A stretch of DNA of 64,000 nucleotides from Mycolicibacterium neworleansense (lineage in GTDB: Bacteria > Actinomycetota > Actinomycetes > Mycobacteriales > Mycobacteriaceae): positions 2,418,001 through 2,482,000 of the forward strand of contig NZ_CWKH01000001.1 in assembly GCF_001245615.1 (NCBI RefSeq). Direction: 5' to 3'. Shown here in pieces: positions 35,686-48,554 of this stretch. Both the position numbers and the translations under genes were made by a program. Below the pieces are notes generated by a model. It did not search any database and was not told the origin of the DNA. It saw only the letters and a program-made list of their open reading frames with translations. How positions within the stretch are numbered: position 1 is the first letter of the stretch; the number at the start of each line of letters is the position of its first letter.

Positions 35686-36789
35686 ATGGAATCCTTCGTT
35701 CACCTGCGCAAAGGCAAGACCCCGAAACGGGTGCATGCCGACCTAGACGGGCTCAAGGACGACGAACTTGGTCGCGGGGGGTTCGTCGGTCGCACCGCGA
35801 ACATGTACCGGCGTAACGACCCCACCGCCTACCGCACGGTCGGCCCCCTGCGCCCCACCGACGTGTTGTCCAGTGAGCTCAAGCCCAGCGACGCGACCGA
35901 CGCCCATGGCGGACCGCTGTTGATGTTCTCCAACGCCGACTGCCAGGTGCTGCTGAGCCGGCGCACCGAGGAGATGCCGTTCTACGTCCGCTACGTCGAC
36001 GGCGATCTGCTGCTGTTCGTGCACAAGGGGTCGGGCCTGCTGGAGACCGAGTTCGGTCCCATGCGCTACCGCGAGGGCGACTGGGTCTACATCCCGAAGG
36101 CCTGCACGTTCCGCCAGCTACCCGACAGCGAGAGCACGTGGCTGATGATCCAGGCCACCGACGATTTCCGGGTCCCGCCGGCCGGCACCCTGGGTCGGCA
36201 CTTCCCCTTCGACCCCGCACAGGTGACCATTCCCGAACCGGAACCCATCGACGACGACGGCCGGGACGAGTACGAGGTCCGGCTGATCCACTCAGAAATC
36301 CAGGGGGTGGGCTCTACATCTTTGTTCTACCAACACAATCCCCTCGACGTGGAAGGCTGGCGGGGCGACAACTTCCCGTTCACCTTCAACATCGAGGACT
36401 ACACCGTCATCACGTCCGAGAGTGTGCACCTGCCACCGACCGTGCACCTCTTCATGCAGGCCACCGGGGTGTACGTGATGAACTTCCTGCCCAAGCCGGC
36501 CGAGAGCGTGCCGGGCACCGAGCGCACCCCCTGGTATCACCGCAACGTCGACTACGACGAGATCGCGTTCTTCCACGACGGATCGCTCTACGGCATCCCG
36601 ATGCCAGCCGGCCTGGTTTCCCATGCCCCGCAGGGTGTTCACCACGGGGCACCGGAGAAGGCGCGGGAACGCGCCCGCCGCAAGTTCGACGATTACGACC
36701 GGGTCGACTGGTCGGTGATCGCCATCGACACCCGCCGTCGGCTCGTCCCGTCCGCCGAAATCCTCGCCAACGACCTGGGGCAGCACTAG
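35686..36789 (+). CDS. Homogentisate 1,2-dioxygenase-like protein
   Basis: 367 residues, double cupin. Homogentisate dioxygenase opens an aromatic ring with O2 and Fe(II). The iron ligands can be traced: His285 in WYHRN, the acid at Asp291/Glu292 in VDYDEIAFF, and His319/His320 in PQGVHHGAPE, matching the H-E-H set of the human enzyme. It is shorter than typical homogentisate dioxygenases (about 430-445), so the substrate may differ. No maleylacetoacetate isomerase or fumarylacetoacetase is adjacent; an alpha/beta hydrolase follows instead. It leads a plus-strand series to 43361. Confidence 0.75.
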   Translation: MESFVHLRKGKTPKRVHADLDGLKDDELGRGGFVGRTANMYRRNDPTAYRTVGPLRPTDVLSSELKPSDATDAHGGPLLMFSNADCQVLLSRRTEEMPFYVRYVDGDLLLFVHKGSGLLETEFGPMRYREGDWVYIPKACTFRQLPDSESTWLMIQATDDFRVPPAGTLGRHFPFDPAQVTIPEPEPIDDDGRDEYEVRLIHSEIQGVGSTSLFYQHNPLDVEGWRGDNFPFTFNIEDYTVITSESVHLPPTVHLFMQATGVYVMNFLPKPAESVPGTERTPWYHRNVDYDEIAFFHDGSLYGIPMPAGLVSHAPQGVHHGAPEKARERARRKFDDYDRVDWSVIAIDTRRRLVPSAEILANDLGQH

Positions 36790-36791
36790 TG

Positions 36792-36824
36792 ATGAGCGCT
36801 TGCGCGAAGCACGAAGGACAGTGA
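36792..36824 (+). CDS. MSACAK minigene, first tandem copy (10 codons)
   Basis: ATG AGC GCT TGC GCG AAG begins a frame that reads MSACAKHEGQ and stops at TGA 36822-36824. It starts two bases after the TAG of the dioxygenase-like gene, and its stop overlaps the ATG of the second copy by one base (TGATG). The sequence GAAGGA near its end can serve as a ribosome site for the next frame. Whether the peptide matters or only the coupling is unknown. Confidence 0.5.
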   Translation: MSACAKHEGQ

Positions 36825-36859
36825 TGAGCGCTTGCGCGAAGAACAAAGGACACCGATGA
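36824..36859 (+). CDS. MSACAK minigene, second tandem copy (11 codons)
   Basis: Reads MSACAKNKGHR and stops at TGA 36857-36859, which overlaps the ATG of the alpha/beta hydrolase gene (ATGA). AAAGGA inside it acts as the ribosome site of that gene. The first 21 bases from the preceding TG are identical to those of the first copy, so this is a duplication of about 32 bp. Confidence 0.5.
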   Translation: MSACAKNKGHR

Positions 36860-38046
36860 CAACGATCGATTCACCTGTGAAGCACGCGTACGACCGCATT
36901 CCGTATCTGGTTGCCTACCAGAACAACTCGGCGGTACGCGACGTCTACGGTGGCGTCGCCGAACTGGTGGTGCTGGAGAGCTATCTGCTCAAGCCGAAGG
37001 AGAAGTCGTCCGACACGGTGCTGGTGTTCATGCACCCGATCGGCGGCGGCGCCTACCTGCCGATGATCAATGCACTGGCCCGCGCCGGACACCACGTCAT
37101 CTACTGCAACAGCCGGTTCCGAGGCACCGACTCGGCCCTACTCATGGAGAAGGTGGTCGAAGACCTCGGTGAGTGCATCAAGGACGCCAAGAACCGGCTC
37201 GGCTACGACAAGGTGGTGCTGGCCGGGTGGAGCGGCGGCGGCTCACTGTCGGTGTTCTACCAACAGCAGGCACAACACCCGACGGTGACGGCCAGCCCGT
37301 CCGGAGACGGCCCCGACCTGACCCAGCTGGGGTTGATCCCGGCCGACGGAATCATGTTGCTGGCCGCGCATATCAGCCGGCACGGCACCATGACCGAATG
37401 GATGGACGCATCCATCCTCGACGAGAACGATCCGTCCAAGCGGGACCCGGAACTCGACCTCTACAACCCGGACAACCCCAACCAGCCGCCGTACACGCCG
37501 GAGTTCCTGGAGCGCTACCACCAGGCGCAGATCGCCCGGAACCGGCGAATCACCAAGTGGGTCAAAGAAAAATTAGCGGAGCTCTCCGAACAGGGGCGGC
37601 CCGATGACGAGTTCGCGTTCGTCGTGCACGGCACGATGGCCGACCCGCGCTGGCTGGACCCGACGGTCGATCCCAACGAGCGCACGCCCGGCACGTGCTA
37701 TCTGGGCGATCCCCAGGTGGTCAACATGAGTCCGGTGGGCCTGGCGAGATTCTGCACATTACGCAGCTGGCTGTCGCAGTGGAGCTACGACGACGCCAAC
37801 GGTGACGCGGTCAAGGCTGGGCCGGATATCGCGGTGCCCGCACTGGTGATCGGAAACCTCGCCGACGACGCGTGCACGCCCAGTCACACCCGGCGGTTGT
37901 TTGAGGCCATCGGTCACTCCGACAAGGAGATGCACGAGATCCCCGGTGCCAACCACTACTACTCGGGTCCGGATCAGCGCGAAACGCTGCGCCAAGCCGT
38001 CGGCATCTGTACGGATTGGCTGCATCGCCACGGGTTTTCAGCATGA
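36856..38046 (+). CDS. Alpha/beta hydrolase
   Basis: 396 residues. Oxyanion region VLVFMHPIGGGAYLPMINAL, nucleophile Ser126 in LAGWSGGGSLSVFY, acid near IGNLADDACTPSH and His in EIPGANHYYSG. The middle has a long inserted lid (about 190-290). It could hydrolyse an ester or a C-C bond of a ring-cleavage product. Its ATG is tied to the upstream minigene, and its own stop overlaps the CoA-transferase start (ATGA), so the series is translationally coupled. Confidence 0.8.
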   Translation: MTTIDSPVKHAYDRIPYLVAYQNNSAVRDVYGGVAELVVLESYLLKPKEKSSDTVLVFMHPIGGGAYLPMINALARAGHHVIYCNSRFRGTDSALLMEKVVEDLGECIKDAKNRLGYDKVVLAGWSGGGSLSVFYQQQAQHPTVTASPSGDGPDLTQLGLIPADGIMLLAAHISRHGTMTEWMDASILDENDPSKRDPELDLYNPDNPNQPPYTPEFLERYHQAQIARNRRITKWVKEKLAELSEQGRPDDEFAFVVHGTMADPRWLDPTVDPNERTPGTCYLGDPQVVNMSPVGLARFCTLRSWLSQWSYDDANGDAVKAGPDIAVPALVIGNLADDACTPSHTRRLFEAIGHSDKEMHEIPGANHYYSGPDQRETLRQAVGICTDWLHRHGFSA

Positions 38047-47218: not shown

Positions 47219-48522
47219 TGAGTACCGAATCCCCGGTCGTTGTGGTCGGCGGGCAGGACTGGGACGACGTGGTGTCCGCGGCCCGCGAGCACGCCGGCGA
47301 ACGCATCGTGGTCAACATGGGCCCACAGCACCCGTCCACGCACGGCGTGCTGCGACTGATCCTGGAGATCGAGGGCGAGATCATCACCGAAGCCCGTTGC
47401 GGCATCGGCTATCTGCACACCGGTATCGAGAAGAACCTGGAATACCGCAACTGGACACAGGGCGTCACGTTCGTCACCCGGATGGACTATCTCTCGCCGT
47501 TCTTCAACGAGACGGCGTACTGCCTGGGCGTGGAGAAACTGCTCGGCATCACCGATGATGTTCCCCAGCGCGCCAGCGTGATCCGCGTGATGCTCATGGA
47601 GCTCAACCGGATCACGTCGCATCTGGTGGCGCTGGCCACCGGCGGTATGGAACTCGGCGCGATGAGCGCGATGTTCTACGGATTTCGGGAGCGCGAGGAA
47701 ATCCTGCGGGTGTTCGAGTCGATCACCGGCCTGCGGATGAACCATGCCTACATCCGGCCGGGCGGCCTGGCCGCCGACCTGCCCGACGGTGCACTGGCCC
47801 AGGTGCGGGCGCTGCTCGACCTGTTGCCGAACCGCTTGGGCGACTTGGAGGATCTGCTCAACGAGAACTACATCTGGAAGGCGCGCACCGTCGGTGTCGG
47901 GTATCTCGACCTGACCGGGTGTATGGCATTGGGAATCACCGGCCCGGTGTTGCGGTCCACCGGGCTGCCCCACGATCTGCGCCGCGCACAACCGTACTGC
48001 GGTTACGAGAACTACGAATTCGACGTGATCACCGATGATCGCTGCGACTCCTACGGTCGGTACATCATCCGGGTCAAGGAGATGCGGGAGTCGCTCAAGA
48101 TCGTCGAGCAGTGTGTCGATCGCCTCGAGAAGATGGGCGATGGTCCGGTGATGATCAGCGACAAGAAGCTGGCCTGGCCGGCCGATCTCAAGGTCGGGCC
48201 GGACGGGCTCGGCAACTCCCCCGAGCACATCGCCAAGATCATGGGCCACTCCATGGAGGGCCTGATCCACCACTTCAAGCTCGTCACCGAGGGCATCCGG
48301 GTGCCGGCCGGACAGGTTTACGTCGCGGTCGAGTCCCCGCGCGGGGAGCTCGGGGTGCACATGGTCTCCGACGGCGGCACCCGGCCCTACCGGGTGCACT
48401 ACCGCGACCCCTCGTTCACGAATCTGCAAGCGGTGGCGGCGATGTGCGAGGGCGGCATGGTGGCCGATGCGATAGCCGCGGTGGCGTCGATCGATCCGGT
48501 CATGGGAGGGGTTGATCGATGA
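47218..48522 (+). CDS. nuoD: NADH dehydrogenase I subunit D
   Basis: 434 residues, 49-kDa-type quinone-binding subunit. [15 protein letters not shown] carries the quinone-site histidine; [20 protein letters not shown] and the C-terminal [15 protein letters not shown] and [23 protein letters not shown] (last 10 residues PVMGGVDR) are conserved. Its ATG overlaps the nuoC stop (TGATG) and its own stop overlaps the MSACAK minigene start (ATGA). Confidence 0.95.
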
Positions 48523-48554
48523 GCGCTTGCGCGAAGAGGAGACAGCACGGATGA
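48519..48554 (+). CDS. MSACAK minigene between nuoD and nuoE (11 codons)
   Basis: Reads [11 protein letters not shown]. Its ATG overlaps the nuoD stop and its TGA (48552-48554) overlaps the nuoE ATG, each through ATGA. The first 18 bases are identical to both copies at 36792 and 36824. AGGAGA inside it is the nuoE ribosome site. It is therefore a movable-looking coupling unit placed within an otherwise standard operon. Confidence 0.5.

Follow-up and report, generated by a model that had tools for sequence, protein, structure and literature searches.

Tandem MSACAK minigenes of Mycolicibacterium neworleansense as probable copies of a short, dispersed, MIRU-like element at stop/start junctions

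The tandem minigenes lie within 64,000 nucleotides of the Mycolicibacterium neworleansense genome (contig NZ_CWKH01000001.1, positions 2,418,001 to 2,482,000), the whole of which is termed the window. On the forward strand, an HgmA_N-like gene (35686..36789; PF20510, with a weak match to homogentisate 1,2-dioxygenase) ends with TAG at 36787-36789, leaving a gap of 2 nt before the ATG of the first minigene (36792-36794), so this junction is adjacent and not overlapping. Minigene 1 (36792..36824, forward strand) encodes MSACAKHEGQ, and its TGA stop (36822-36824) overlaps the ATG (36824-36826) of minigene 2 as TGATG (36822-36826). Minigene 2 (36824..36859, forward strand) encodes MSACAKNKGHR and stops with TGA at 36857-36859, overlapping as ATGA (36856-36859) the start codon (36856-36858) of an alpha/beta hydrolase gene (36856..38046, forward strand; PF12146 and PF00561), after which comes a gene for a family III CoA-transferase. 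The unit period of the pair is 32 bp, and each unit carries a forward-strand, ribosome-site-like stretch 5 nt ahead of the following ATG: AAGGA (36814..36818) before 36824 and AAAGGA (36845..36850) before 36856. The chained minigenes, both overlaps, a duplication of about 32 bp and the purine-rich stretches had been pointed out in a preliminary description, and all were read again directly from the letters. A third copy in the window is a single unit (48519..48554, forward strand; 19-mer match at 48518), the minigene stop of which overlaps the ATG at 48551 that begins the next coding frame. An Rfam search of 36300-37500 gave no match up to E 1, and thus no known RNA family.

The distribution of the repeat was followed from the window outwards. 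With up to three mismatches, the MSACAK 19-mer had three matches in the window where 0.05 were expected, and the exact 18-mer was found in 18 copies at 14 loci of the same genome while the reversed control gave none. A 16-mer with two mismatches matched 37 places in this genome against 6 for the control, so these looser matches include chance ones. Across the genus, the relaxed core GATGAGCGCTYGCGCGAAGA was present in 135 of 198 genomes, that of the window included, with none for the control; it amounted to 2,237 copies over the 198 genomes, with a maximum of 73 in a single genome and arrays of up to seven units (genome G090). The sequence is therefore dispersed in mycobacteria, as had been proposed from the window alone. 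In a sample of 200 genomes from the order the core was detected in 40, 25 of them outside the genus, and in none of the eight sampled genomes that belong to the same family but to a different genus. Twenty hand-chosen stretches from other families of the order were fetched: one family has composite units, mostly 75-95 bp long, that end in the MSACAK core, with the downstream start 30-44 bases after the core start (L398-L409), and further families have arrays with a 30-32-bp unit. A search of the unit against plasmids and phages returned no match at E 1e-3, and the single match of the core to a viral contig had neither the GATGA start nor the purine tail. The 16-base core had no match in open-access papers, so the element may still be published elsewhere.

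Junctions of conserved operons were compared between filled and empty genomes. At ilvB-ilvN, the window's genome carries GCCTGATGAGC followed by a 32-bp unit, while its two closest relatives, 89% identical in this region, carry GCCTGATGAGCAAC without a unit, making the former longer by exactly 32 bp. For this junction 58 of 60 genomes were matched, 30 loci were fetched and the gene families were checked; four loci were filled and 26 empty, with zero, one or two units across the set. All 26 empty loci had a stop/start overlap, which by our own count was TGATG in 24. At cysD-cysN, again with gene families checked, the window's genome holds an additional 35 bp, and junctions contain either no unit or one: two of 29 other loci were filled, one more held a degenerate unit beside a different repeat, GGGGCGAGCGAAGCGACGGG, and further loci carried GGGGCGAGCGAAGCGACGGG alone. 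At the hydrolase junction the MSACAK element was present in five of 54 loci, in one of them in an Arg form; other inserts were a MIRU core (L167), a near copy of it (L166), a looser unit recognised by eye (L168) and a degenerate insert (L163), and the remaining loci among the 54 listed had no insert of these kinds. A tree was made from the flanks, with many weak forks and with rows holding other inserts left out; on it the three junctions required 5, 4 and 3 changes for 5/49, 4/30 and 3/25 filled loci. These counts fit repeated insertion, and repeated loss is possible as well.

The GGGGCGAGCGAAGCGACGGG sequence is a third dispersed repeat, with a tandem period of about 30 bp, present in 85 of the 198 genus genomes (L338-L367) and in no copy in the window's genome. 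It sits at some MSACAK junctions (L313, L315, L317 and L328 at cysD-cysN) and also elsewhere: 19 of 30 arrays lay between same-strand coding sequence and the rest did not, some being inside genes. Its similarity to MIRU53 is weak, 27 of 2000 shuffles scoring as high.

The position and reading frame of the units were examined in a set of at least 143 arrays, with at least 206 units, drawn from the loci of the window's genome and from a genome scan of at least 120 stretches, 15 of 120 records in which were by our own count not titled as mycobacteria. Thirteen of the 143 arrays had short flanks and were left out, leaving 130; genes were called by codon usage and not taken from an annotation, with a score for which 48 of the window's ORFs served as the training set and which was applied to other organisms too. 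Among the matches listed, 109 of the 130 arrays had same-strand coding on both sides and 21 did not. Units in the listed arrays were most often spaced by 32 bp (30 cases), followed by 33 bp (17), 30 bp (10), 31 bp (four), and 34 and 35 bp (one each). The ATG of the first minigene was overlapped by the upstream stop in 82 of 119 arrays listed (39 as TGATG, 43 as ATGA), and the upstream frame agreed in 98 of the 119. On the downstream side, an overlap between the minigene stop and the next start was seen in 66 of 111 arrays listed (52 as ATGA, 14 as TGATG), while a control frame two bases on gave one in only 6 of the 111; of the remaining 45, 26 had no stop within the short stretch that was read and 19 stop elsewhere. 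The third frame of the unit stopped immediately in 110 of 111 arrays listed, since it is the same frame as that of the upstream gene. Chaining at both ends was seen in 52 of 106 arrays among the matches listed. In tandem arrays, leaving out one mixed array, the spacing neither stopped nor stayed in frame in 3 of 41 listed (p 9e-5 against one third), a value that, like the other p-values on arrays, is only indicative because related genomes do not yield independent arrays. In the 20 other-family loci the core was read as MSACAK or MSARAK into an overlap in 12, as DER(L/S)RE in four and in the third frame in two, with no overlap in the other two; the core is read in different frames, and the minigene peptide is therefore not conserved.

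Three loci of the window's genome were also viewed by eye. In L009 and L025 the core, read in the DERLRE frame, looks joined to a gene, at the N terminus in one and at the C terminus in the other, and these could possibly be protein extensions derived from the element. In L020 the minigene is in frame with a downstream lipoprotein-like gene, of which it may form an N-terminal extension.

The strength of the ribosome sites was estimated in the 111 arrays listed as pairing with what we take to be the anti-Shine-Dalgarno sequence. Mean values were -5.95 kcal/mol for the unit tails, taken as 17 bases up to position 3 before the downstream gene's start, -6.32 kcal/mol for the host sequence ahead of the first minigene's ATG and -3.55 kcal/mol for one random place per upstream gene. 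The tails differed from the random places (p 1.5e-8) and not from the host sequence (p 0.35), so the unit brings a ribosome site about as good as the one that it displaces.

The observed dispersal, position, reading frame, empty sites and tail strength argue for a dispersed unit of translational coupling, which was one half of the original proposal; the other half, attenuation through cysteine, found no support. It would have the Cys codon of each minigene sense cysteine and attenuate the downstream gene, and it draws on the one TGC codon of the typical unit, on the copy at cysD-cysN and on the reported existence of cysteine-responsive polycysteine leaders in mycobacteria. However, when one locus was taken from each genome, 10 of 30 had CGC (Arg) in place of this codon, and some of these loci may not be junction copies. 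This figure is used in place of the 195:11 ratio of Cys to Arg units among the matches listed in the array set, which is biased because the genome scan employed the Cys form of the core. Each unit has a single Cys in place of a conserved run, the units lie within operons whose functions are unrelated (the genes, apart from ilvB-ilvN and cysD-cysN, being recognised by eye), and just two of the 29 other cysD-cysN loci are occupied, with one more degenerate. Cysteine sensing was rejected on these grounds and is considered very improbable. Polycysteine leaderless short ORFs of mycobacteria were reportedly described by Canestrari et al. in 2020; like them, the MSACAK minigene is a short ORF with cysteine in an operon, but its Cys is single and replaceable, it is operon-internal and its targets are generally not related to cysteine.

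The closest known repeats in anatomy are the mycobacterial interspersed repetitive units (MIRUs), reportedly described by Supply et al. in 1997, for the insertion of which target sites are given in the literature. The core called MIRU here has a 53-bp spacing plus a 77-bp form, and was assigned as a putative MIRU from these lengths and its anatomy, not from a published sequence. According to the portions of the sources available, MIRUs are apparently mobile, insert at start codons and have an internal ORF coupled to the gene (PMC12548453), have units of 46-101 bp at 41 loci (PMC3914561), and include named forms of 77 and 53 bp (PMC4213456), while the letters of our core are those of a repeat-derived primer for M. 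intracellulare (PMC10117815). MIRU-like cores were found in 89 of the 198 genus genomes (L217-L246), wider than the available wording of PMC4213456, which confines MIRUs to M. leprae and the tuberculosis complex. Same-strand coding flanked 27 of 31 MIRU arrays and ATGA was present at the downstream start in 21 of 28. The MIRU start stretch copies the target start: among the 17 of 31 arrays that could be paired, base 5 agreed in 16 against 6 expected. Over the 198 genomes the copy counts of MIRU and MSACAK were inversely related (Spearman -0.71), and only two genomes had five or more copies of both. On a tree of 54 genomes, in which 25 of 51 inner branches are weak, the 36 genomes labelled as MIRU-rich or MSACAK-rich needed two changes, 18 with few copies having been left out. 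With so few changes lineage history suffices, and interference between the two families was rejected as the cause of the exclusivity.

The reading we favour, with a probability of about 0.8, is that a short, non-autonomous, MIRU-like element, which rebuilds the stop/start junctions it has entered, is present here in tandem as the two MSACAK minigenes. An element of 30-35 bp would enter operon junctions at which a stop overlaps or abuts the next start. Its 5' end would supply (T)GATGA, which places the ATG of the element at the stop of the upstream gene; the element would also bring the purine-rich tail and the sequence that sets the minigene stop on the downstream start. A ribosome ending the upstream gene could then reinitiate on the 10-11-codon minigene and again on the next gene, so that expression would suffer little when a unit inserts or multiplies in tandem. 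Translation of the minigenes and preserved coupling are suggested by the anatomy, and the element would probably be moved by an enzyme acting in trans. Against this reading stand the 45 of 111 arrays whose minigene stop lies off the next start, the 21 of 130 that are not flanked on both sides by same-strand coding, the copies read in other frames and the unconserved peptide.

The patchy, singleton distribution at the three junctions, the amplification in some lineages and not others and the unconserved peptide would suit a selfish repeat without effect on expression, seen at stop/start overlaps because selection removes other insertions. We regard this as a serious candidate, if somewhat short of an even chance; it is compatible with the favoured element, although the tail's matched ribosome-site strength and frame suggest an element built for the junction niche. 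The anatomy and niche common to both families raise the further idea that MSACAK is a true, shortened member of the MIRU family. This could also explain a CGCTTGC stretch common to MIRU77 and the MSACAK unit, and the MIRU core, near copy and looser unit at the hydrolase junction of other genomes. Note, however, that the local alignment of MSACAK was matched by 359 of 1000 dinucleotide shuffles for MIRU77 and 781 of 1000 for MIRU53, the MIRU units being taken from our own loci by their 53/77-bp length and not from the original paper, and that a unit of 30-35 bp falls outside 46-101 bp; membership of the family is accordingly judged unlikely. Ancient, conserved short coding genes inherited vertically are the least probable explanation considered and are given next to no weight: the core does reach other families of the order, but the nearest relatives have no copies at ilvB-ilvN, cysD-cysN and the hydrolase junction, and such empty sites speak against vertical inheritance.

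The matched empty and filled junctions at conserved operons provide a compact, naturally replicated test of mycobacterial termination-reinitiation, and the element would extend the MIRU principle to unrelated sequences. A broader proposal, which we put forward tentatively and think rather more apt to fail than to hold, is that in the order several families of mini-elements of unrelated sequence (MSACAK, MIRU and possibly GGGGCGAGCGAAGCGACGGG) have made stop/start junctions their niche. Each would carry or borrow a start together with a ribosome site and a terminal stop/start overlap and would spread via an enzyme in trans, and the amplified family would differ by lineage.

The stop/start architecture itself is already known for MIRUs, and what differs is the MSACAK sequence and its unit length. 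Both are short, dispersed, tandem-prone repeats between co-oriented genes, with an internal ORF that would be coupled to the start of the following gene and with chaining at both ends that, for MSACAK, does not extend to every array; MIRUs are regarded as mobile elements with little effect, and MSACAK is likened to them in this. The two differ in that the MSACAK unit is 30-35 bp in the genus and the MIRU unit longer, in that MSACAK begins with a fixed ATGAGC whereas the MIRU start is copied from the target gene, in having no sequence similarity above chance and in being abundant in different lineages of the genus. Dispersed repeats of the REP, BOX and RUP type are likewise small and non-autonomous; unlike these, MSACAK has by eye no strong palindrome and is placed by stop/start overlap.
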